A stretch of 64,000 bases of DNA from Tridacna crocea (taxonomy: Eukaryota > Mollusca > Bivalvia > Cardiida > Cardiidae): contig OX031059.1 in the NCBI GenBank assembly GCA_943736015.1, forward strand, positions 60,399,159-60,463,158, given 5' to 3'. Made by a program: the position numbers and the translations under genes. How positions within the stretch are numbered: position 1 is the first letter of the stretch; each line of letters starts with the position of its first letter. Shown here piece by piece: positions 1 to 28,471 of this stretch. The notes below the pieces were generated by a model that did no database searches, was not told where the DNA came from, and saw nothing but the letters and a program-made list of their open reading frames with translations.

Positions 1-2375
1 ATAGAACATGTTCACAAATCTCTCCAAAATAAAGTAAGGTGCGGATTTCTTCTTGGGGTAATTTAATGTTATAAAGTATTGCCCTTTCTCTAAAAAAAAA
101 AACTGTCAATAACTTTTACCTTTTTTACATGCAAATCCTAATAAGGTCCGTTTCAAAATGTATCACTCATTTTTCAAAAAGTGTCGATCATTTTCTGGAA
201 AGTGTTAGTCATTTTCTAAAAGGTGTCACTAATTTTTCAAAAAGTGTCACTCGTTTTCCTAAAAGTGTCACTAACTTTTACGTTTTTGTACTTTTACATG
301 TAAATTCTCATATGGTCTATTTCAAAAAGTGTCACTCATTTTTCAAAAAGTGTCACTCATTTTCTTAAAAGTGTCACTAATTTTTCAAAAAGTGTCATTC
401 ATTTTTCCAAAAGTGTCACCCGTTTTCTAAAAAGTGTCCCTAACGTTTACGTTTTTGTACTTTTACATGTAAATCCCTATATGGTCTATTTCAATAAGTG
501 TCACTCATTTTTCAAAAAGTGTCACTCATTTTCTTAAAAGTGTTACTAATTTCTAAAAATGTTCAATTCATTTTTCAAAAAGTGTCACTCATTTTGTTAA
601 AGGTGTTAATCAATTTTGCTAAAAATGTCACTCATTTTTCAAAAAGTGTCATTCATTTTCTAGAAAGAGTCACTACTGTTTTTTGTTTTTGTTCTTTTAC
701 ATATAAATTCCTACAGGGTCTATTTCATTAAGTGCCAGTCGTTTTTTTTTTTTCAAAATGCCACTCATTTTCTGAAAAGTGTTACCCATTTTTCAAAAAG
801 TGTAACTCATTTTTCAAAAAGTGTCACTTATTTTCTTAAAAGTGTTACTCTTTATCTGAAAAGTGTCGCTACCTTTTACGTTTTTTGTAATTTTACATAT
901 AAATTCCCATAGAGACTATTTCAAAAAACTGTCGCTTATTTTTCAAAATGTGTCAATCATTTTCTTAAAAATATAACTCATTTCCTTAAAAGTGTCACTT
1001 GTTTTCTTAAAAATGTGCTATTAATTTTCTCCCAAAAAATAGAAACGGCTGTATAAAATCACATTTAATAAATACGAGGAATACCACTGATAAGAAACCA
1101 ACCAATATGACACGGGCGGAGGAGGACTGTTCAAAATACATCTATACCTTTATAAAGTTTATACAAGAGGCAAACAGTCCCCTCCGCCCATGTCATATTG
1201 GTTGGTTTCTTATCAGTGGTATTCCTCGTATTTTTTAAATGTGATTTTATACAGCCGTTTCTATTTTTTGGGAGAAAATTAATAGCACATTTTTAAGAAA
1301 ACAAGTGACACTTTTAAGGAAATGAGTTATATTTTTAAGAAAATGATTGACACATTTTGAAAAATAAGCGACAGTTTTTTGAAATAGTCTCTATGGGAAT
1401 TTATATGTAAAATTACAAAAAACGTAAAAGGTAGCGACACTTTTCAGATAAAGAGTAACACTTTTAAGAAAATAAGTGACACTTTTTGAAAAATGAGTTA
1501 CACTTTTTGAAAAATGAGTAACACTTTTCAGAAAATGAGTGGCATTTTGAAAAAAAAAAAACGACTGGCACTTAATGAAATAGACCCTGTAGGAATTTAT
1601 ATGTAAAAGAACAAAAACAAAAAACAGTAGTGACTCTTTCTAGAAAATGAATGACCCCTGTAGGAATTTATATGTAAAAGAACAAAAACAAAAAACAGTA
1701 GTGACTCTTTCTAGAAAATGAATGACACTTTTTGAAAAATGAGTGACATTTTTAGCAAAATTGATTAACACCTTTAACAAAATGAGTGACACTTTTTGAA
1801 AAATGAATTGAACATTTTTAGAAATTAGTAACACTTTTAAGAAAATGAGTGACACTTTTTGAAAAATGAGTGACACTTATTGAAATAGACCATATAGGGA
1901 TTTACATGTAAAAGTACAAAAACGTAAACGTTAGGGACACTTTTTAGAAAACGGGTGACACTTTTGGAAAAATGAATGACACTTTTTGAAAAATTAGTGA
2001 CACTTTTAAGAAAATGAGTGACACTTTTTGAAAAATGAGTGACACTTTTTGAAATAGACCATATGAGAATTTACATGTAAAAGTACAAAAACGTAAAAGT
2101 TAGTGACACTTTTAGGAAAACGAGTGACACTTTTTGAAAAATTAGTGACACCTTTTAGAAAATGACTAACACTTTCCAGAAAATGATCGACACTTTTTAA
2201 AAAATGAGTGATACATTTTGAAACGGACCTTATTAGGATTTGCGTGTAAAAAAGGTAAAAGCTATTGACAGGTTTTTTTTTTTTAGAGAAAGGGCAATAC
2301 TTTATAACATTAAATTACCCCAAGAAGAAATCCGCACCTTACTTTATTTTGGAGAGATTTGTGAACATGTTCTAT
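1..2375. repeat. Giant near-perfect palindrome built of ~21-bp tandem repeats
   Basis: The left arm (1-1131) and right arm (1173-2375) are reverse complements around a 41-bp spacer. The match runs from the very first base, so the left arm may start outside the window; base 1 pairs with base 2375. Both arms are filled with variants of TTTTTCAAAAAGTGTCACTCA, roughly 21 bp apart. This motif is interrupted every ~170-230 bp by a segment containing TTTTTGTACTTTTACATGTAAAT. The right arm is 72 bp longer, which is explained by a ~71-bp tandem duplication at about 1585-1726. The arms otherwise differ only at scattered bases, so the inversion is young or kept similar by gene conversion. Short open frames in it are mirror copies of each other and are not coding. 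Confidence 0.93.
1585..1726. repeat. ~71-bp tandem duplication in the right palindrome arm
   Basis: The stretch beginning CCCTGTAGGAATTTATATG occurs twice in a row here but only once in the left arm (near 668-720). It is the one large difference between the arms. Confidence 0.85.
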
Positions 2376-2965
2376 TTTGATCTACTAGGTTCTTCCAACG
2401 TGTCATAGTTAAGCTTAAGTTTTTTGCCTTTTTTGGTGGGTTTTGTCGCGTTTTTATTCTCTGATATTGACTGTCAACTACCTTTTCTTTACATTGACAT
2501 GTACGTAGTGATTATTACCGAGACTGAGCTTGCATTTGGTGTTTGCAATGTTTTGAGATGGGAACGCTTTTGGCATACACACTCGTTACAATGTCTTTCT
2601 CTTTGGTCACTTCCTTTTTGTATCTGTTTGACAGTCCAATTTTAGATCCACTGCCTGATTGGTTGACAAGTCATTTTTGTTTTGATCTTAATATACAAAT
2701 GTGCCTAAACATGTTTGTCCGGTTATCAACTAGACAACCAGATATAAGCAGTTATAACAAAAGTGATATACTTTATCCTAGTGAACATATCATGATGTGG
2801 AGACTGAGATAAAAGACTATGTTTTGCCCTAACTTATCCCTTGTTCGGGGTTAAACATTTCAGAAGACTTTTTTTGTAAGTCCGTCTCGAAATCAGTTTC
2901 TTTAACACTCTACAAAAGTATTATTATAATGAAATATTATACAGATACTTTCATATCAATTTAAT
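2376..2965. other. No recognisable feature
   Basis: AT-rich sequence. The two short overlapping open frames in it (2424-2812) show no motif, splice context or repeat match that I can recognise. Confidence 0.5.
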
Positions 2966-3620
2966 ACAGGCACGTAATGTATCAAATCGGAGTGAAAAGT
3001 ATATGCTAAAGTCATTTTTCTAATCAGAAACGGAATTTTTTTTTTTTTATAAGTTTTAAACAAAATTCACATTTGAACTTGATCAACGATGATAAGGATG
3101 TCTAAATGACACTTTATCGTACAGGTGATATATTTCACCTTTCTTTCCCTCGTACGAATTTATTTCTTTACCTAAGATTGGAAACTAAAATCACAAGTGT
3201 GCACCACGATATATGAAAGCGGGGTAAAAGGTATGTGCTAAAGTCCTTTTTCTAACCAGAAATGGATTTTTTTTTTTTTTTAAGTTTTACACAAGACACA
3301 TATATAAATTTGATCAACGACGATAAAAAACTGTCTAAATGACACTTTATTGGACATTTGATCTCTATTACCTATTTTTCCTGGGTTCGATTTCATTCTT
3401 TATTAAACTAAACTACAAAATCACAATCATTGAATATTACATATGGAATCGGATACAAGATGTGTAATAAAGTCCTTTCTTTATTAAAGAATTATTATCA
3501 TCATTATAATTTTTTTACAAAAAATGATTTTTCTAGGTTTCAATCAAAATCCGTACTTAAATTTAATCAACGATAATAAGAACGACCTCATTGATTTTTC
3601 ATCAAATATTTGATCTCGAA
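2966..3620. repeat. Array of ~233-bp tandem units (three, diverged)
   Basis: Units share a core GCTAAAGTC-TTTTTCTAA, a poly-T run, then TTTGATCAACGA and CTAAATGACACTTTAT. The cores start near 2994, 3226 and 3459, a spacing of 232-233 bp. The middle unit is almost identical to the copy at 4711-5005, while the outer two are older. Confidence 0.8.
3211..3505. repeat. ~295-bp direct duplication, copy 1
   Basis: Nearly identical, in the same orientation, to 4711-5005, about 1.5 kb away. It spans one full 233-bp unit and the start of the next. Confidence 0.88.
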
Positions 3621-4100
3621 TATACAGGGCGGAGAATGGGGGGAAATGACGACCAGTGTTTATTCATGAAGATTTTATCAAACTCAATTGAAATTACCAA
3701 CAATAGATAAAGAATTAGTACAAATTATACATATGCACATTCTCACTCATCATTACCGAAAGAAAATTGCCACATCTTTGGTTGTCAAAATGACTGTGCC
3801 TTATGGCTTTTGCACAGGTATTTGTAACTGAGACCGCTAGCACTTTCTATTAAGAATTCCAATTCACAGTGTAAATCATTCAATGGTACATGCAAGTAAT
3901 AATTGTGGGTGACTTGTGTAAATGTGTCTTTATTTTAATTGCAAAAGGGAATATAACAGATAAGTGAAATAAAGTAAATTAGCAATACATTTGGGTTGTA
4001 TCATCGTAAATTATATTCACAGTAAGTTTTGCGTGTATACATGTATTTCGAAAATGTACATGTAAAATCAGAAAATCTCCATTCACAAGTACAGACAAAA
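3621..4100. other. No recognisable feature
   Basis: AT-rich spacer between two satellite blocks. I see nothing coding in it. Confidence 0.5.
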
Positions 4101-4640
4101 TCATTTTCAATAAGAGACCCTTCTGACAGAGAATTGGGGTCTCATACATTTTTAATGAGAGACAACAAAGCTAGATCAAGGTATCCTAGATATCGTCATG
4201 CTGTTGTCATTTGACTCGCGGCAATAGACTTTTTGAACGGATATTTGGATGTCTCGCACATTTTTAATGAGAGGCAACGAATTTGAATCGAGTTACCATA
4301 GATTCACGTCATAACATCTTCATTTAACTCGGGGCAATTGACTTTTTTGAAAGAGTATTGGAAGGTCTCATACATATTTAATAGAGGTTATTGCTATGTC
4401 TGTTTATGTTAATGTCTATTCTTTACACTCGGGCCAGACATAATGCATTTTTGATCAGCGGTAGGTGGCCTCTTTTGAAGGAGAATTGAACATTTTCATG
4501 CGTATTTAATGAGAGATCAATTCGATGTCTGTATGAGATTTTTCTTTTTGAGTAGACATTATACATTGTTTATCAGTGATAGAAGGTCTTCTATGAAAAT
4601 CTAAATTCCAAGTTGGCCATTACGCATGCACAAAGATCGT
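4101..4640. repeat. Diverged satellite with CATTTTTAATGAGAGG core
   Basis: At least four degenerate units carry CATTTTTAATGAGAG or CGTATTTAATGAGAG. The region also has a TGATCAGCGGTAGG/CCAGACATAATGCAT segment. The same motifs, in the same orientation, form the well-kept 128-bp array at 6713-7040 on the other side of the integrase cassette. Confidence 0.7.
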
Positions 4641-4710
4641 GATTAAACTTTCGGATCACAGTAACTATTTGCCTCCAGTAGTTTCAAAATCGCAATTCTG
4701 GAAAATGATT

Positions 4711-5005
4711 ATATGAAATTGGGGTTAAAGGTATGTGCTAAAGTCCTTTTTCTAACCAGAAATGGATTTTTTTTTTTTTAAGTTTTACACAAGACACATA
4801 TATAAATTTGATCAACGACGATAAAAAAACTGTCTAAATGACACTTTATTGGACATTTGATCTCTATTACCTATTTTTCCTGGGTTCGATTTCATTCTTT
4901 ATTAAACTAAACTACAAAATCACAATCATTGAATATTACATATGGAATCGGATACAAGATGTGTAATAAAGTCCTTTCTTTATTAAAGAATTATTATCAT
5001 TATTA
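4711..5005. repeat. ~295-bp direct duplication, copy 2
   Basis: Partner of 3211-3505. It stops about 10 bp short of the TAG stop codon of the TBP-like gene, so the junction lies directly behind that gene. Confidence 0.88.
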
Positions 5006-5009
5006 TTAT

Positions 5010-5015
5010 TTTATT
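5010..5015 (-). terminator. AATAAA polyadenylation signal behind TBP-like gene
   Basis: AATAAA directly follows the TAG stop on the minus strand. A second AATAAA lies at about 4979-4984. The region is AT-rich, so chance occurrence cannot be excluded. Confidence 0.4.
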
Positions 5016-5294
5016 CTATAGCAGTCTCGCATATTTCCGTATTCGTCCGTACCCCTCTCTTTTACTCGAAACTTTGCCGTTACAGTTGATAATTCCGTCA
5101 GGAAACACTAAACAGTTTCCTCCAGCTTTTCTGTGTTGCCATATCAGTCCGGGAAATCGTGCTGGATCATACCGTACATTCGTTATTTTGTAGCAGAGTT
5201 GTCTTAAGTCAATAGGACAGTTGAGTTGACCACTGTAGACTACGTTTGTGATGATCATGATCGTTTGACAGTCTAGACATAAATGATAGAACAT
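5016..5294 (-). CDS. Single-lobe TATA-binding-protein-like protein (92 aa)
   Basis: Residues ~14-92 look like one TBP repeat. They contain NVVYSGQLNCPIDLRQL (first strand and helix), then YDPARFPGLI, LVFPDGIINCNGK (strands of the DNA-binding saddle) and the closing RKYARLL. Spacing and order match the N-terminal lobe of eukaryotic TBP, although FPGLI is closer to the second lobe. Only one lobe is present, whereas cellular TBP has two. The TAG stop is followed at once by AATAAA (5010-5015), so the short form may be the real end. The gene lies 36 bp downstream of the integrase ORF on the same strand. The start at 5294 is the first ATG; Met13 (near 5258) would also keep the whole domain. Role is inferred: DNA binding or promoter recognition for the element. 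A captured and shortened host TBP is the alternative. Confidence 0.75.
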   Translation of the reverse strand: MFYHLCLDCQTIMIITNVVYSGQLNCPIDLRQLCYKITNVRYDPARFPGLIWQHRKAGGNCLVFPDGIINCNGKVSSKREGYGRIRKYARLL

Positions 5295-5310
5295 TGCTAG
5301 TTTTCAGCCT

Positions 5311-5319
5311 CTTTTTATA
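5311..5319 (-). promoter_or_regulatory. TATAAAAAG box between integrase and TBP-like gene
   Basis: A consensus TATA box lies in the 36-bp gap, 17-25 bp upstream of the first ATG. A start site ~30 bp downstream would fall just past that ATG, which would favour initiation at Met13. It could serve as a promoter, but this is inferred from sequence only. Confidence 0.35.
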
Positions 5320-5330
5320 TTCTCGGTTGT

Positions 5331-6443
5331 TTACGAGTATTGCGTAATATCAGTTTCCGGTATCCACCTGTCATACTTTTTTGGCCAGTGTAACCAGCGC
5401 ACCAGGACTTCCTGTTTCTTATTGCGTGTCCTTCTTTTCAAAATTTTTTCGATGCTAAAGTCGGTACCGTCGTCAACGTTTATGGCTTGTAATTCTTGTT
5501 CGTAAAATGTACCATCAATTTCATCGTTGTCCCAGTCTACTAACGTGTAAATTGGAAGTCCTTGTCTTTTGAAACGTGATCTGATTTTGAAAATCTCCCC
5601 TGTCCATTTTTGCGAGTATTCTCTGTCAAATACGGACCTGATGTGCGACAATCGTACAGTCTGACCGATTTTATATTTGAATTTTTTTATAACGGGCTTT
5701 TCTCCTTTGCTTCCTTTGGTTCTAATAAGATACTGTTGAAGACGACTTTCCCTTCATTTTCCACGGAAATTGCTGATGGGTTTTCTCCAAGACTCCTGTG
5801 GTGAGTGTGACTGTAACTATGTACAAAATCCTGTAAAATGTCAATGTATCTACTGGTTCTGTTTTTGAGCAGGTATCGAAAAATCTTGTGTTTTAGCGTT
5901 TTAATAACTCTTTCGGCGTAATTCGCTTTTGTTTCCGTATTAGATGCATACATATGATGTATACTTTGACTGTTTAAATATTTATTTACTTCTTTGCTTC
6001 TAAATTCCATTCCTCTGTCCGCACGAATTGTGTTCGGCTTTTTGGGGCCTGTCAGTATACGTTTTAAATGCCATGACCACATCAGCGCCTCGCTTACTCT
6101 TAACAGGTTGAGCATAAAGAAAACGAGAAAATACATCAATAACAATCAAAATGTATTTCACACCTTCGTTATGCTTCTGTAAATTGGCCATGTCCATAAG
6201 ATCCATGTTCCATTGACTGTCGATGCCATTTACAATCACCCTGGAACGTTTAAAGCGGCGTCTAGCACCCTTGCTTAGAGAATACGCTTCTTGATTCTGC
6301 AACCATCGGCGTATTCTGTGCCTGCCAATTTTGTATTTACCCTCGTCTTTAACATGTTGATAGAGTTTTTCAGGACCACCAAAGCTAGTGGGAGATTTAA
6401 AGTCAAAATACAAAGAAGACAAATATTGTTGCCAGTCAGACAT
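5331..6443 (-). pseudogene. Polinton/Maverick-type integrase with chromodomain, two frameshifts
   Basis: Three abutting open frames make up one integrase. Frame 1 (from ATG 6443) has the N-terminal helical region, then VIVNGIDSQWNMDLMDM with the first catalytic Asp (D81) and KYILIVIDVFSRFLYAQPVK. Frame 2 (to 5687) carries IRADRGMEF (second Asp) and NYAERVIKTLK (catalytic Glu, 34 residues later). Frame 3 (to 5331) has an SH3-like region (KIGQTVRLSHIR, WTGEIF) and a C-terminal chromodomain (FSIEKIL, VRWLHWPKKYDRWIPETDI). One surplus base in the A-run at about 6062-6065 and one missing base in the A-run at about 5698-5701 break the frame; the two shifts have opposite sign. Catalytic residues are kept, so decay is recent or these are homopolymer errors. 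No Polinton polymerase, ATPase, protease or capsid gene is visible nearby. Confidence 0.88.
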
Positions 6444-6477
6444 GTTTATTTATTACATAGACATGCATACATTCTTA

Positions 6478-6642
6478 CTACAGCAAATAGAAATAGTAAA
6501 TAGAGAGGTTTCTTTCGTTTTCTATGTACAAGTCAACAAGCCTTTCAACACCCTCCGCGGCGTCTCTTCGCAATTGTCTGTATCTTAACCACAATTCGAA
6601 GTCATTGATTGTTGTCACAAATATAAGAATGGGTCCGAACAT
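6478..6642 (-). CDS. Small ORF upstream of integrase (54 aa), unknown
   Basis: It runs from ATG 6642 to TAG 6478, 34 bp before the integrase ATG and on the same strand. The start MFGPILIFVTTINDFELW is hydrophobic. A charged, probably helical stretch follows (LWLRYRQLRRDAAEGVERL). Codon use looks protein-like, but I recognise no family. It could be a small element protein or the tail of a lost upstream gene. Confidence 0.35.
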   Translation of the reverse strand: MFGPILIFVTTINDFELWLRYRQLRRDAAEGVERLVDLYIENERNLSIYYFYLL

Positions 6643-6712
6643 GTTCACGTTGATCGGTTGTTATCAAAACGTGCCTGAACACGTTTTGAATTGGTAGTGA
6701 AAATGATTAGGC

Positions 6713-7040
6713 TATGTCTGAATTTTTGCAGAGGATATTATACAATCGCGCCAGACATCACGCATTTTAATCAGCGGAAAGCGACCTATTTTGTAAGAAT
6801 ATCGACATTTCCTCATGCATTTTTAATGAGAGGCGAATACTTTGTCTGAATTTTTGCAGACGATATTATACAATCGCGCCAGACATCACGCATTTTGATC
6901 AGCGGAAAGCGACCTATTTTGTAAGAATATCGACATTTTCTCATGCATTTTTAATGAGAGGCGAATGCTTTGTCTGAATTTTTGCAGACGATATTATACA
7001 ATCGCGCCAGACATCACGTGGAAGAGTGTCGACATTTCTC
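6713..7040. repeat. 128-bp satellite, about 2.5 units
   Basis: Units start with GTCTGAATTTTTGCAGA at about 6715, 6843 and 6971. They continue through ACAATCGCGCCAGACATCAC and CATTTTTAATGAGAGGCGAA. The third unit is cut after CAGACATCACG. Confidence 0.9.
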
Positions 7041-7195
7041 AAACATTAAATCATTTTGATATGCGACTCTGTCAGGAGAATATCGAAAGGTCTCATGAAT
7101 TATAAAAAAAATCAGCTAGTTGAATTTGTGAGAGAGAGGGAATGATCAAACTAACAGGGAATTTTATATTATGTCACCGCTATTTGGGGATCGCA

Positions 7196-7530
7196 GTAAG
7201 TAGAAGCGAGGACCTAAAAGCTGAGTTCTTAAATAGCTAGTGTGCAGGACTTGGGATGGGTCGTGGCTTCGATCCCTGGATAGGTCGAGGACTGAAAATT
7301 GTGAAACCATTTATTTCTCTACCACAGCTGACCATCATAATGGTTATGTGAGACAGCAGTCAGTGACTTGGAAAGAAAATGATGCCCTGGTAAAAGATAC
7401 TGCTGGAAAGCATGGACAGATGCACTGGCCGCAGCGACATAAGTGCAACAAAAATGTTGAAAACGGCGTTAAACACCATACGATTTTATTCATTAAAGTG
7501 AATACAAAACCTAGACTTTGAATGGTAAGG
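7196..7530 (+). repeat. tRNA-derived SINE-like element
   Basis: A box-B-like GGCTTCGATCCC lies near 7266-7277. The 3' end carries GAAAACGGCGTTAAACACCAT, also seen at 57960. The 93-codon open frame here is a by-product of the SINE. Confidence 0.6.
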
Positions 7531-7583
7531 GGGGTAAAAGCGTTTACAGACAAAAGCATTTTTAGTAGAGCAACCTCTTTGAG

Positions 7584-7700
7584 AGAAAGGTCTCATGCAT
7601 TTTTAATGGCGAATGCTTTGGCTGAATTTTTGCAGACGGTTCTATACAATCGGGCGCCGGTCTGATCGGTCAAAACGCGCCTAAACACGCTTGGAATTGT
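7584..7700. repeat. Stray 128-bp satellite unit
   Basis: Contains GGTCTCATGCATTTTTAATG, GCTGAATTTTTGCAGACGG and ACAATCGGGCG. It is followed by TCAAAACGCGCCTAAACACG, which resembles 6656-6680. Confidence 0.7.
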
Positions 7701-8408
7701 CATCTAGCCTCGGCAGGTGGGAGGCAACGAAAGCCAGACAAAGTTATACAAGATTACGTCATACTGCCACAGGCAGTCTGACCTCCAACAGACAAAGGCC
7801 TCTAACAATAGTCTGAACCGTCAAAGACAAAGGCATGGTCTCTATAGTGCCGCAGGCAATTTGACCGGCATAGTGCCATAAATACTACTCGTAGTTACCA
7901 TATTGCAAAGACAGATCTCCCCACTGTAAGTTTATAGATCTTTAGTAACTTTAGTTATTTCATGACTGTATCCAAAATAGAATATAATCTGACAGATTAG
8001 CACACTAAAAACATTACAAGAATTCTTCAGCCGCTGTTTGAATGTGATTATACTGAAACTGAATATATCTATCTTTTCAAAATTTCAAAATTACTTTCAA
8101 CTAACGTTACAATTCTATGCAAAATATTAAGGACGAAATTGATTGGCTGCGAGTGATCAAAGCACTCGAAGTATTGAAAGCCTGTGTATTGTTGTTAGGA
8201 GTTATATAATGCTAGTTCATTTCCATCTGGTTATAGTCTAGCCTAAACATATAATCCAGAATAGCTTTAGGGATTTTACTTAGTTATTGGCTGAGTATAC
8301 TTTTTCCATCGTAAAGTGCTTTTGTCTAAGCTTGAACACAATTGGCGAAAGGATGTCAAACCTGCTTATTTCAGTCCTGTTACCTATAACATTCTGATAC
8401 GCAGTAAC
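7701..8408. other. No gene; short repeated motifs only
   Basis: Contains loosely repeated ACTGCCACAGGCA and GACAAAGGC(C/A)T motifs (7745-7870) and otherwise nothing recognisable. Confidence 0.45.
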
Positions 8409-22850: not shown

Positions 22851-25800
22851 TCACTTTATAACAGCACTCAAGACGATATTCATTGCCTCCTGGTCTAAAT
22901 CACAGAACACTCCGGATTTGATCAAAGTATCTAGTTTTGTGACTCTGCTATCTACAGGTCGAACCATCTGGTAAGTAACGGCGTCTCCGTATCTGTCTGG
23001 AGGTCTTTTTTGTCTTGTCGATCGTCTTGGCACTGGTACCGGAGGATTATCAACATTCTCTCTGTCTTTGTCGTTGTCGTCTTTCCTTGTATTTTTGTCG
23101 GAAGTATCTGTTGTTCTACTTTGTCTCTCCTGTTCTTCAATATCATATCTTTCATCTTGACTATCTTTTACTCTCTTTTCAAACTGTCTTTCCTCTGAGC
23201 TTCTCGATTCCTGGGTTTCTTGCACTGTTATATTTCGCTCTCTTGCTTCATCTTTCCTTTTGTCGAGCTCTGACTCTGCTTCAGAGGTTCTTATCTCCCT
23301 ACTTCTCTGCTCTTTAATTTCTCTTCCACTAAAAACTGTATTGCTTCTTGGAGTTTTGTGTCTGCATTGTTCTATCAACACGATGTCAGATTCTTCCTCT
23401 GAATCATCTTCTTCTTCCTCTACCTGAACTTCTACTCCTTTTTCTCTTTTTGTTTCTTCTCCATCTGTGCTTGGATAAGCTGAAGGAAGATAGGCGTCCC
23501 CATCTCTCTCTGTATTTCTTACAAATCCAGTTCCTTCACTCATTCCAACATCTTTCTCCATGACGTCATGGTCTCTTACTTTCGATGCATCGATGTTTTG
23601 ATCATCTCTGTCCTCATCTAATTCTTCATCATTTTCTTCTTCAACTTTGAAAAGAAGGTTTCTGTGTAGGGTCTTCTCTTTTCCGCTTTCTGACTTCAAT
23701 TTAAACACAGGAATCTCTGGTCTAGGTTGTTCTATCACCTTATATGTTTCTTCTTCAAACTTGTCCGCTATTTTGTGCTTTCCATCAAAAGCAACTCTTT
23801 TCACTAACACTGTATCTCCTACAGATATCTGCACTGCTTTAGCTTTCCTATCATAGAACTTCTTAATTTTGTCTTTGGCCCTTCCTATATGTTTCTCAAC
23901 TATTTCTTTCGTCTTGTCCATTCTGTCTTTCAATTCGTTGAGATAATCTTTTGTGGTTGGATTTGACGGCTCTGTCACTGGTTCGTACTGTACATCTATT
24001 GGTAGTTTTGGTCTTCTGCCAAACATTAGTTCGTACGGTGATATTTTTGTTGTTTCGTGAGGCGTACTGTTGTAATAGAAAACCAATGAACTGATGTACT
24101 TTTTCCAGTCTTCCTTTTGTTCGTTTTCGAGTGTTCCCAACATATCTAGGAGCGTCCTATTAAATCTTTCAGGTCCAGCATTTCCCTGAGGATGGTATGG
24201 TGTTGTATGAGACTTTTTGATGTTGGTGATTTTACATAGTTCTTTTATAATTTCACTTTCGAAATTTGCTCCTTGATCGGAATGTAGTGTGGCTGGAATC
24301 CCATAATGAACTATGAAATTGTTGAAAAATGCCTCTGCTGTTGTTTTTGCCGTTTGGTTCCTGGTTGGTATGGCTAGAGCGTACTTCGTGAAATGGTCTG
24401 TGATGACTAAAATGTTCGTTATTCCTCCTTTGGATGGTTCTAGCGTGAGGTAATCAAAACAGACTAGTTCCAGCGGATAGGTGGTGTGTACGTTGACGAG
24501 CGGCGCTCTCTCGTTTGTCGAAGACTTTCTTCTGAGGCAACGATCACATTTATTCACCCATTTGTCTACATCAGCTGACATTCCAGGCCAGTAAAATCTT
24601 TCACGAAGTAGCTTGAATGTACGATCTTTTCCAGGATGGCCGACATCGTTGTGTAAACCTTGCAGTGTCTCTTTTCGGTACTTTGATGGTAGGACAAGTT
24701 GATCTATTTCTCTGTCTTCATCTTTGACCGTTCTAAAAAGTATTCCTCTTCTCATCTTAAAGTTGTTGTATTGCTTCTTCATTGTCAAATCTTCCTTTCC
24801 ATATACATTCGTTGGTACTCTTTTGTCAATCACTGCTATTCTCCATCTATCGATGAGTGCATCTTCTCTCTGCGCTCGTCTTATTTCTCTAACTTCTTTT
24901 TGAGCAAGTGATTGTCCTGGTGTTTCTGTCGCGTCTACAATGTTTATGTTAAAAGCCGGGAGGGTCTCTATAAATGGCGGAGGAGTAATGGAGGAACATA
25001 TCGTCTTTACTGTTTTGTCATCTATTTTGACGCATTCTTTGTCGTTATTTGTCTCACTCTTTTCTGATGGATACCTGCTCATGGAATCTGCATCTACATT
25101 TTTCAAACCTGGTCTGTAGTAGATGTCAAAAGTGAATTCTCCCAGAGCTGAGGCCCATCGATGTCCCGTTGCATCTAGTTTCGCTGATGTAAGAATGTAG
25201 GTTAACGGGTTGTTGTCTGTTAAGACTATAAAATGATTCAGAGTGAGGTAGTCTGCAAATTTCTCTGTGACTGCCCACTTTAGCGCAAGGAACTCCAGCT
25301 TAAATGCGCTATAATTCTTTTCCGTCTTTGTCAAAGATCGGCTGGCATAAGCTATCACTTTTTTCTGATTTTCTTGTGTCTGATACAGTACTGCTCCAAG
25401 ACCTTTTCTTGATGCGTCTGTATGAAGCTCGAATGGCAGACTGAAATCAGGATATGCCAGAATCGGTGGAGATGACAGTATCACTTTCAGTTTTTCAAAT
25501 ATCTCTTGTTCTCTGTCTGACCATGTCCACTGATGTGTCTTCTTGTTGTTTTTCTTTGTCATAGTCGGTGGTAAAAGATCTGCTAAAGGTCGAGTGATCT
25601 TACTGAAGTCCTTTATAAATCTTCTATAATATCCAGCAAATGCTAGGAAGGATCGCAGTTCATCGGCATTTGAAGGAGTTGGCCATTTATTTATTTTGTC
25701 GATTTTTTCGGGGTCTGTCTCTATTCCATCTGCGCTTACGACATGTCCCAAGAAGCCAACCTTTTCTTGAATAAAGGTACATTTTTCCGGCGACAACTTT

Positions 25801-27335
25801 AGATTGCACTGTTTCAGTCGTGTTAAGACAAGATCCAAACGATGGAGATGCTCTTCAAAGGTGTCCGCAAAAACAATTAAGTCGTCAAGGTAGATGACGC
25901 AAATTGTCATGTTATAATCACCGAGGCATTCTTCCATAAGTCGCTGGTACGTCGCTGGCGAATTTGACAGACCGAAAGGCATCCGGTTATACTCATAGAA
26001 TCCAAGTGGACCTACGGTAAACGCAGTTCTCTCTTTGTGTGACTCTTCTATTTCTACCTGGTGATATCCAGATTTCATATCGATCGTGCTGAAGTACTTG
26101 CTTCCTTTTAACACGTCGAATATTTCTTCGATTCTCGGAAGAGCATAGGAATCTTTCACTGTTCTGGAGTTTAAATTCCTGTAGTCTACACACATCCTAA
26201 GAGATCCATTCTTTTTCCGCACTAATACAACATTGCTCGCCCATGGAGACTTTGACTTTTTTATAATTCCAGCAGATAATAATTGTTCCAGATGGTTTCT
26301 GACTTCATCGATCATCATCGGTGGTATTCTGCGATGCTTCTCCTTGAATGGCGTTTCTTTTCCTTCCATGAGATCTATTCGATGTTTAATCATGTCACAA
26401 TGGCCTATATCGTCGTCACTTGTTGAGAATATGTCACTATGTTTCGTAAGAAGATCTTTCAATAACTCTTTCTGTTCTGTAGAAAGTAGATTATTTTCAT
26501 CTATTGTGAGAAGTTTCATGATGTCTGGTTCAGTAACATTTGTGATTTCGTCATCTTTTTCCTCGGCAATTGTGACCGGCTGCAGTTCGCATAAACAAGC
26601 CTTTGGTGAAATTGTCACTGTCATTGTTGTAAGGTTTGACAAAGTTACTACCAGTTCCTTTCTTTTTCCTTTCTCGAATTGTACTAGAGCAGGAGTTATA
26701 TCTACACATGAAGGTATGCCACTATCCTCAGTTTCGTGGGTTATTGCAAGTGTGCTGGGATGGTTAAGTTCTTTGTCCGTGTAACCCTTGATCTCTTTGC
26801 TTTCATTTGGCCTCAGTATAATCTTTTCCTTTTCTGCACTTCTTACTACCGCTATTCTATTATTCATCTTCTTCATCTCTTTTTCTCTAACTGTGATAGC
26901 TCTGAAGCTCAGATACCATGGCGTGTAAAGTTTGGCTTTCTGTAGAAATTGTTGTCCAAATTCTTGTTTACAGTCACTCATATATTCTTGTAAAATGTTG
27001 GTTCCAAGTATAATTGGTATTCGCTTCGAGTAAACTGTTTCTGGAACAACAAGTAGCAAACATCTCTTTTCGTGCGATCCAGGGACTCCATATGGTATCT
27101 TTATGTCGGCTTCAATATATCCTAGATATGGTAGTTGACTTCCATCAGCGCATTCAATGTTTAAAATTCTCTCTATCTTTTGAAGAGTCGCTTGAGGAAG
27201 GCTTTCTTTTACAAAAGATTCTGAAATAACGCTGACGCAGCTTCCAGTGTCCAACAATGCCTTTGTTTTTATGCCATTTATGTCTAATTCTGCCTCATTT
27301 GGTTCTCCAACTAATTTGGGATCTCTGGAATCCAT
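22851..27335 (-). CDS. pol: Ty3/gypsy Pol polyprotein (1494 aa from its first Met)
   Basis: The order is aspartic protease (LLDTGS, catalytic D29), reverse transcriptase with VDYRNLN, MPFGLSNSPATYQ and YLDDL (Y482, D484, D485), RNase H (HTDASRKGLGAVL, D640), integrase HHCC zinc finger (C930, C933) and the integrase core with D961, D1020 and E1056. The D1020-E1056 spacing of 35 residues is canonical. A GPY/F-like part follows (KFYDRKAKAV, GDTVLVKR). The last ~230 residues are a very acidic and basic tail rich in E, D, R and K that I cannot assign. The frame is open upstream of this Met into gag, in the -1 frame, so the true start is probably the frameshift at 27371. No internal stops. Confidence 0.96.
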   Translation of the reverse strand: MDSRDPKLVGEPNEAELDINGIKTKALLDTGSCVSVISESFVKESLPQATLQKIERILNIECADGSQLPYLGYIEADIKIPYGVPGSHEKRCLLLVVPETVYSKRIPIILGTNILQEYMSDCKQEFGQQFLQKAKLYTPWYLSFRAITVREKEMKKMNNRIAVVRSAEKEKIILRPNESKEIKGYTDKELNHPSTLAITHETEDSGIPSCVDITPALVQFEKGKRKELVVTLSNLTTMTVTISPKACLCELQPVTIAEEKDDEITNVTEPDIMKLLTIDENNLLSTEQKELLKDLLTKHSDIFSTSDDDIGHCDMIKHRIDLMEGKETPFKEKHRRIPPMMIDEVRNHLEQLLSAGIIKKSKSPWASNVVLVRKKNGSLRMCVDYRNLNSRTVKDSYALPRIEEIFDVLKGSKYFSTIDMKSGYHQVEIEESHKERTAFTVGPLGFYEYNRMPFGLSNSPATYQRLMEECLGDYNMTICVIYLDDLIVFADTFEEHLHRLDLVLTRLKQCNLKLSPEKCTFIQEKVGFLGHVVSADGIETDPEKIDKINKWPTPSNADELRSFLAFAGYYRRFIKDFSKITRPLADLLPPTMTKKNNKKTHQWTWSDREQEIFEKLKVILSSPPILAYPDFSLPFELHTDASRKGLGAVLYQTQENQKKVIAYASRSLTKTEKNYSAFKLEFLALKWAVTEKFADYLTLNHFIVLTDNNPLTYILTSAKLDATGHRWASALGEFTFDIYYRPGLKNVDADSMSRYPSEKSETNNDKECVKIDDKTVKTICSSITPPPFIETLPAFNINIVDATETPGQSLAQKEVREIRRAQREDALIDRWRIAVIDKRVPTNVYGKEDLTMKKQYNNFKMRRGILFRTVKDEDREIDQLVLPSKYRKETLQGLHNDVGHPGKDRTFKLLRERFYWPGMSADVDKWVNKCDRCLRRKSSTNERAPLVNVHTTYPLELVCFDYLTLEPSKGGITNILVITDHFTKYALAIPTRNQTAKTTAEAFFNNFIVHYGIPATLHSDQGANFESEIIKELCKITNIKKSHTTPYHPQGNAGPERFNRTLLDMLGTLENEQKEDWKKYISSLVFYYNSTPHETTKISPYELMFGRRPKLPIDVQYEPVTEPSNPTTKDYLNELKDRMDKTKEIVEKHIGRAKDKIKKFYDRKAKAVQISVGDTVLVKRVAFDGKHKIADKFEEETYKVIEQPRPEIPVFKLKSESGKEKTLHRNLLFKVEEENDEELDEDRDDQNIDASKVRDHDVMEKDVGMSEGTGFVRNTERDGDAYLPSAYPSTDGEETKREKGVEVQVEEEEDDSEEESDIVLIEQCRHKTPRSNTVFSGREIKEQRSREIRTSEAESELDKRKDEARERNITVQETQESRSSEERQFEKRVKDSQDERYDIEEQERQSRTTDTSDKNTRKDDNDKDRENVDNPPVPVPRRSTRQKRPPDRYGDAVTYQMVRPVDSRVTKLDTLIKSGVFCDLDQEAMNIVLSAVIK

Positions 27336-27367
27336 GCTTATGTTCGATCCCGCAGCATAAGCATTTA

Positions 27368-28471
27368 TTAGTTTGGGCAGTTTGCTTGTTTATGTCCCTG
27401 TTTATTGCATTTGTAGCAAATAATGTTGTTTTGTCTGTTCAGTGAGGGGCAATTCCTTTGTATATGTCCTTTATTGTTGCATAAATAGCATGTTGGCTGG
27501 AATGTTTGGTTGGCAAGAGGTCGTTGTTGTTGACTATAATTTCCTCTTCCTCTATATCCTTGACCTCTGCCTCTGTATCCTCTATATCCTCTACCTCTTC
27601 CTCTATAAAAGTTTTGCTGGGTTTGTTCCTTTTCTTTTTGACTATTCTCCAGCTTTTCAATCCTTTCGTTTAATTTTGTCAACAACTGTTTTATTTCAGT
27701 CATCTCAGATGAAGGAGTTGCTGCTTTGCAAACACTAGCTTCACTGTAATCTGAATCCTTCAAACTCGACTCCAGTTTCCTAAGTTCTTTCTTAAACTCA
27801 TCATAGTCTTTTATCTTTTCACAATGATAAATAGACAGATGTTTCAAGTCTCTATTCAGGCCAGCATGTAACACCTCTTTCAGAATGACAGTATCTGATC
27901 TCCGAATGGCTTTTAACACTACTGCCTGGTCAAATAACTCCTCCAGTCTAGATGCATATGAAGCAACACTCTCCTTAGGATTTTGTTGACAGCCATAAAA
28001 TTTCCTCATGATGCTTTCTCTGGATTCAACCGATCCATAGTCACTGTCGAACTTTTCTATGATATCTCTGACGCTAATGTGTGGTCCAAGGTGTCTGATC
28101 TTGTCACTAGCCTTGCCCTTGCAAGCCCTCCGAATTCCCAATAGTATTTGTTCCTCCTTAAATACTTTGTCACAAAGTAGAGCTTCTATTTCGTATCTAA
28201 ATGTTTCCCAAGTGATCTCTCCTTTCCCTTCTTCTCCATAAAATACTGATAATTTGGGATAATTATAAGCTCCATACTTTGTAGAGGGATCAAAATGTTC
28301 TCCATGCTCTTCATGTTTTTCACTGAAAGCGTGTAAAAGCTTTGTGATGTCCTCAACTGATCCTAATCTGGGCTTGATGCCTAATAGATGAAGAGCTTGT
28401 AATAATTTTTCTTCCTCCTCCGATATTCCTCCCGTAGCCATTTCTAATTTTTCTTCCTCCTTTCTATCCAT
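27368..28471 (-). CDS. gag: Ty3/gypsy Gag (367 aa)
   Basis: The capsid-like N-terminal part includes YPKLSVFYGEEGKGEITWETF and EILL-type helices. A coiled region (~255-290) is followed by an RG-rich basic stretch (RGRGRGYRGYRGRGQG). Two CCHC zinc knuckles close the protein: C328-C331-H336-C341 and C352-C355-H360-C365. The knuckles bind the RNA genome. The stop TAA directly follows the slippery site. The start is the first ATG of the frame, within MDRKEEEKLEM. Confidence 0.94.
   Translation of the reverse strand: MDRKEEEKLEMATGGISEEEEKLLQALHLLGIKPRLGSVEDITKLLHAFSEKHEEHGEHFDPSTKYGAYNYPKLSVFYGEEGKGEITWETFRYEIEALLCDKVFKEEQILLGIRRACKGKASDKIRHLGPHISVRDIIEKFDSDYGSVESRESIMRKFYGCQQNPKESVASYASRLEELFDQAVVLKAIRRSDTVILKEVLHAGLNRDLKHLSIYHCEKIKDYDEFKKELRKLESSLKDSDYSEASVCKAATPSSEMTEIKQLLTKLNERIEKLENSQKEKEQTQQNFYRGRGRGYRGYRGRGQGYRGRGNYSQQQRPLANQTFQPTCYLCNNKGHIQRNCPSLNRQNNIICYKCNKQGHKQANCPN
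27371..27377 (-). promoter_or_regulatory. -1 ribosomal frameshift heptamer CCCAAAC
   Basis: Read in the gag frame as C CCA AAC, it is immediately followed by TAA. A -1 slip gives CCC AAA and continues CTA ATA into the open pol frame. The pattern X XXY YYZ is canonical. I did not establish a downstream pseudoknot. Confidence 0.8.

Follow-up and report, generated by a model that had tools for sequence, protein, structure and literature searches.

A predicted two-lobed TBP and a tandem-PC4 protein as a probable promoter-recognition kit of Polinton-type elements in Tridacna crocea

We analyzed a stretch of 64,000 nucleotides (nt) from the 1.05-Gb genome of Tridacna crocea (C4:60399159-60463158; hereafter the window), in which an open reading frame (ORF) of 92 residues behind an integrase had been predicted to encode a single-lobe TBP. 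The features of this locus are collected in Table 1. Homology to TBP was borne out, with the ORF product matching Pfam TBP (PF00352) over a single stretch, residues 15-90 (52.3 bits, E-value 5e-14), and TBPs in the PDB (best E 1.7e-13). The product is 90% identical to residues 1-94 of P0067, a two-lobed protein of 187 residues, and homology to the full-length gene of copy L001 stops at window position 5013, where a repeat copy begins that is 94.9% identical (332 columns) to a second one. Because the end of the ORF, the end of this homology, and the start of the repeat copy coincide, the single TBP repeat is, as judged from the sequence, a truncation and not an architecture. Nearly all homologues begin at residue 13 of the ORF (MxITNVV), with residues ahead of this motif found in three (P0067, P0050, and P0012), so the ORF exists as described but its true start codon is likely at 5258 rather than 5294.

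The integrase was correctly placed: it precedes the ORF on the same strand, with 36 bp between it and the first ATG, although it is broken into three ORFs (Pfam chromodomain at 5331-5651, E 2.9e-9; rve at 5687-6145, E 0.01, and at 6000-6443, E 3e-4); its intact counterpart in copy L003 is one ORF of 370 residues. The window TBP copy is non-functional.

Complete relatives of this gene are abundant. With P0067 as the query, 65 matches were found in the genome, and all genome copy counts given here are lower bounds. A first lineage (clade 1) comprises at least 21 full-length copies without stops (L001-L021), 88-95% identical, with the further matches being decayed or partial relatives, such as L022-L030, and at least four copies cut at residue 94. 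A second lineage (clade 2), at ~40% identity, yielded 17 fetched copies, 13 of them without stops. The full-length proteins are two-lobed: that of L003 matches Pfam TBP in two stretches (E 3.3e-29), and P0067 is modelled as a saddle with two lobes. By fold, the TBP of Heterosigma akashiwo virus 01 (E 7e-12) is among the closest BFVD models, and identity of the family to the top five models is 14-22%. In a maximum-likelihood tree, in which long branches were flagged, the second lineage among them, a branch with support 100/97 separates every TBP of the element family from human, yeast, Arabidopsis, and Pyrococcus TBP, human TBPL1, and P0121. Two deep-branching members of the family, P0101 and P0113, sit on contigs of 21.8 and 6.7 kb. 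For the genes of L001 and L003 compared with each other, the ratio of nonsynonymous to synonymous substitution rates (dN/dS) is 0.22, and full-length element TBP is under purifying selection.

Named TBP homologues come from the bivalves Pinctada imbricata and Mercenaria mercenaria, together with one in a metagenome-assembled genome of Candidatus Thiodiazotropha that is presumably host contamination. The evidence from other species consists of protein clusters only, because searches of contig and phage collections gave nothing confirmed: IMG/VR viral contigs held no TBP relative by the window ORF query, none confirmed among 53 pattern matches to alignment A2, and none among 5 to the integrase piece; GTDB contigs gave 69 pattern matches to alignment A2, again with none confirmed; and a TBP search of phage records was without match.

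The host's own TBP gene, located with human TBP as the query, lies at C3:73055766-73060443 in four stretches of 90, 65, 82, and 78% identity, whereas the same query matches the element copies unsplit at 28-35% identity. Outside the element copies, human TBP residues 67-113 have a 47% match at C4:21248186-21248326, which may be an exon of a TBP-related factor of the host.

All 21 first-lineage copies have integrase pieces upstream of TBP in the same orientation, and because the gene follows an integrase throughout this lineage and is also present in the second, it is, on sequence grounds, a gene of a Polinton-type element. The expectation that the element brings its own TBP, and that the same gene would be found beside other integrases, thus held up. 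In L003, a 370-residue ORF for a retroviral-type integrase (rve E 3.5e-15, Chromo E 2.3e-9), a 175-residue TBP, three small ORFs, and a capsid-like ORF follow one another on one strand, with an A32-type ATPase and a family-B DNA polymerase (PolB) past the capsid-like ORF on the opposite strand. From TBP to the capsid-like gene (L003:377-1532, minus strand), the small ORFs form a chain whose neighbours are either a short gap apart or overlap at their stop and start codons, and the chain looks polycistronic. PolB, of the viral/organellar type, is a 1,598-residue ORF in L051 (DNA_pol_B_2, E 1.7e-46) and a piece in L054 (E 1.1e-20); the ATPase is a 217-residue ORF above the Pfam cut-off in L051 (Pox_A32, E 7e-7), while an ATPase-type ORF in L054 scores 15.5 bits, below the cut-off of 22.8. 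In the second lineage, the TBP has 169 residues and converges on a protease-like ORF, which all 17 stretches contain, some of them only in part; a 418-residue capsid-like ORF is present in 13 of the 17. The 138-residue ORF of L031, a candidate adenovirus-type protease, matches Peptidase_C5 weakly (E 0.0064, 16.6 bits against a cut-off of 21.3), and the 418-residue capsid-like ORF of L031, a candidate for a double jelly-roll major capsid protein, has a clade-1 counterpart at ~41% identity, no Pfam match, and no PDB sequence match below E 0.45. PHROGs gave no match for the TBP, capsid-like, protease-like, or two small ORFs. One second-lineage copy followed outward (L054) reaches an integrase (rve E 1.7e-14) 61% identical to that of the first lineage.

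Upstream of TBP, both lineages carry a partner gene that the first reading of the window missed, along with the palindrome described below. It encodes two PC4 units (Pfam PC4, PF02229, E 2e-25 and 1.8e-23; 35.8 bits against PDB PC4), with examples at L052:6778-7266 and L031:1597-2082, and lies on the same strand as TBP in 21 of 21 first-lineage copies (gap 1.7-2.1 kb; the gene beside L001 is broken) and in every one of the 17 second-lineage copies, two being split between frames. The predicted structure (predicted local distance difference test, pLDDT, 85.6) consists of two beta-beta-beta-beta-alpha units, and human PC4 is its top Foldseek match in the PDB (E 7e-4). The element protein shares its domain with human PC4 / p15 but has two such units per chain and adds a C-x5-H-x8-C-x2-C tail, found in 104 of 120 listed homologues (233 rows in all), modelled at pLDDT about 46-69 and possibly zinc-binding. 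PC4 also occurs without a nearby TBP, with 150 PC4 matches scored against the 65 for TBP. Named PC4 homologues come from Ruditapes, Mactra, and Mercenaria. At least four pairs of TBP and PC4 protein clusters have longest contigs of equal size (9,321, 2,093,959, 2,449,102, and 3,208,066 bases), presumably the same contigs carrying both genes; close TBP-PC4 linkage outside this genome is seen only in the 9.3-kb case.

Residue conservation was counted in an alignment of 86 family members, with the intercalating Phe and central base-reading Asn and Thr positions assumed from human TBP. Three of the DNA-intercalating positions carry Phe in 84, 86, and 78 of the 86 sequences, and the central positions are N17 (80/86), N72 (74/86), T108 (85/86), and T160 (83/86). 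The YEPELFP stirrup, which we take to be the TFIIB contact in cellular TBP, is mostly kept (Y132 in 77/86, P134 in 83/86, E135 in 80/86, F137 in 78/86). As for promoters, 6 of the 20 gene starts scanned have TATAWAW no more than 110 nt away, a count that averages 2.0 in shuffled sequence and is reached in 22 of 2000 shuffles; the carriers are one small ORF, PC4 in both lineages, first-lineage TBP twice (L003 and L001), and the second-lineage ATPase.

We consider it probable that the Polintons described here carry, in a complete two-lobed TBP and the upstream tandem-PC4 coactivator gene, their own promoter-recognition kit. The homology, predicted fold, residue conservation, genomic association, and purifying selection reported above were computed; from there we infer DNA binding, TFIIB recruitment, and promoter choice by the element TBP along the following lines. 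From TATA-containing promoters, host RNA polymerase II would make the element PC4 and TBP; the element TBP would bind and bend element promoters through its retained minor-groove Phe residues and recruit host TFIIB through its retained stirrup, with PC4 supporting initiation, and the outcome would be transcription of element genes without competition for host TFIID.

Several observations weigh against this proposal. The fourth intercalating position is Phe in only 37 of 86 sequences (His in 43, Tyr in 4), and the central set reads N,N,T,T instead of the cellular N,T,N,T, also in all 10 clade-2 copies tested of the 17; because of this central set, the specificity of the element TBP may differ from the TATA box, and the protein is, by its residues, a variant TBP rather than a canonical one. 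Within the young clade-1 set, where changes are very few, dN/dS is only 0.43; in clade 2 it is 0.33, and a stop is present in 2 of the 12 copies. TATAWAW is confined to the six upstream stretches named above, with none before clade-2 TBP, and the stretches examined showed no other initiation factor (TFIIB, TFIIA, or a polymerase subunit).

The same residues bear on an unlikely alternative, in which the element TBP would act as a decoy or competitor, tying up TFIIB or sitting on host promoters and thereby lowering host or antiviral transcription. In its favor, the element TBP is predicted to keep the TFIIB-facing stirrup while its DNA-reading residues have changed; against it, three of four intercalating Phe are retained, and a simple decoy would hardly account for the pairing of TBP with PC4. 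We regard as rather improbable a role in DNA replication, with PC4 as a single-strand DNA-binding protein and TBP as an origin bender at the terminal repeats. Polintons encode a family-B polymerase, PC4 is the gene closest to the left end in the copies examined, and the fold matches of the tandem-PC4 model include, at rank 24 (E 0.089), a phage PC4 homologue (4bg7) whose title cites recombination-dependent DNA replication; the canonical TATA boxes before PC4 and TBP nevertheless point to promoter biology, and we know of no precedent for a full TBP saddle in replication.

Two further readings came with the original prediction. A single-lobe protein working as a homodimer that mimics the two-lobed saddle now seems very improbable. 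In the family of defective palindromes in which the lobe-1 copies lie, three of four copies do keep an open frame through lobe 1 plus ~12 residues (106 residues), but the full-length relatives are two-lobed, the cut falls at the repeat junction, and the window copy has an additional stop at the cut. Because each of the three pairs among L048, L049, and L050 differs by 0 synonymous and 2-4 nonsynonymous changes, the lobe-1 fragments are best regarded, by sequence, as passengers. Capture of an exon of the host's own TBP gene has next to no chance of being right and is rejected for the window copy. Nothing beyond homology was found in its favor; the window copy is 31% identical to human TBP, compared with 65-90% for the host exons, so that the near identity to a host exon expected of a capture is not seen. 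The host gene is in four pieces where the element genes are unsplit, and the element TBPs form the separate branch of the tree.

An extension of the promoter-recognition proposal is a two-step programme, in which host TBP would read TATAAAA at PC4 and TBP and the element TBP would read a variant box, TATAAGAG, at late genes. We hold this to be doubtful and a lead only. The late genes would be those of the capsid and the ATPase module, and the element TBP reading them would be the one with N,N,T,T and often His at the fourth Phe position. Of 8 minus-strand genes in clade 2, 3 have the box within 100 nt, a result that random stretches matched in 6 of 5000 draws; the box was chosen post hoc, however, the other 5 genes lack it, and the clade-1 stretches that were scanned do not contain it.

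Polintons are commonly placed near the root of many eukaryotic double-stranded DNA viruses, and they are assumed to rely on the transcription machinery of the host. A lineage with a TBP and a tandem PC4 of its own would represent, in an animal mobile element, a minimal initiation kit that depends on the host polymerase. It would offer a small testable system for viral redirection of RNA polymerase II, a TBP whose base-reading centre is rearranged, and a reference for comparison with giant-virus and mirusvirus TBPs. Compared with cellular TBP (human TBP core, Arabidopsis TBP), the element protein is ~25-35% identical, lacks an extended N-terminal region, and is encoded in mobile elements. Giant viruses and mirusviruses also encode the TBP fold but are far larger, and some have their own RNA polymerase. 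TBP is reported in 59% of mirusvirus genomes (PMC10132985).

In PolB, rve and chromodomain integrase, A32-like ATPase, and, tentatively, capsid-like and protease-like ORFs, the elements resemble Polintons/Mavericks (animal adintovirus-like elements), as they do in a 6-bp duplication and AGTAGT/ACTACT ends, the latter described for vertebrate Mavericks (PMC8097293). They differ from described Polintons/Mavericks in carrying TBP and tandem PC4. TBP and PC4 were not found in the partial texts of papers on Polintons, Polinton-like viruses (PLVs), virophages, and animal viruses (PMC11071296, PMC10120064, PMC12220804, PMC4028283, PMC11071308, PMC9952930), nor TATA and PC4 in that of PMC8097293; the literature on Polintons with PC4 or with TBP, as partially covered, gave no Polinton TBP or PC4, and an earlier mention in adintoviruses is possible.

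The window copy belongs to a palindromic Polinton derivative of 15,070 bp (C4:60391978-60407047) with AGTAGT/ACTACT ends. Window positions 2796-7867 are 97.7% identical in inverted orientation to L048, to the left of the window (5,082 columns), and the arms of the array in the palindrome middle (87-718 and 1656-2287) are 99% complementary. A sister palindrome on C10 spans 15,412 bp, with arms 99.1% identical over 6,517 columns. Both have AG...CT terminal inverted repeats and a 6-bp target-site duplication (CGTAGT and ATCATC, respectively); element ends were located in these two derivatives and at one end of an L001-type copy. Each of the arms consists of the left end of a Polinton, including the integrase and a TBP cut at the identical place, and relative to the L001-type element ~1 kb with PC4 is missing upstream of the integrase. 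The TBP would have been cut after lobe 1 before, or at, formation of the left-end palindrome, and the defective palindrome would then have inserted at two places, each with its 6-bp duplication. Among 122 merged PC4 places, neighbour pairs less than 4 kb apart are convergent in 17 cases, divergent in 0, and same-strand in 3, so that palindromic left-end derivatives seem to have arisen or spread more than once; a single convergent pair was fetched (L064, C14:36032900-36036400) and is a 3.5-kb palindrome at 98.9%. Recurring left-end palindromes are what snap-back defective genomes of protein-primed replicons would be expected to give, by analogy with adenovirus, and these derivatives would make the fate of defective genomes of that type readable in host DNA.

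Table 1. Features of the locus, in window positions.
Feature	Position	Strand	Remarks
Truncated TBP gene, lobe 1 only	5016..5294	-	Pfam TBP match; homology to full-length gene up to ~5013
Repeat copy abutting cut end of TBP gene	4686..5015		other copy at 3187-3516
TATAAAA box	5313..5319	-	61 nt before likely TBP start codon; L001 has the same
Decayed Polinton integrase (rve core and chromodomain), three ORFs	5331..6443	-	Pfam
Portion of 15,070-bp palindromic Polinton derivative (right arm and most of centre)	1..7889		
Inverted arrays of ~21-bp units, palindrome middle	87..2287		
128-bp minisatellite of Polinton left end	6711..7018		common to L001-type element (L055)
Element terminus ACTACT (AGTAGT on other strand)	7884..7889		
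6-bp target-site duplication CGTAGT	7890..7895		second copy precedes left end of element, L063
Retrotransposon pol ORF	22851-27335	-	reverse transcriptase, RNase H, H2C2, rve
Retrotransposon gag ORF	27368-28471	-	zinc knuckle, PNMA-like gag

Elsewhere in the window, a Ty3/gypsy-type retrotransposon occupies 22851-28471 on the minus strand.
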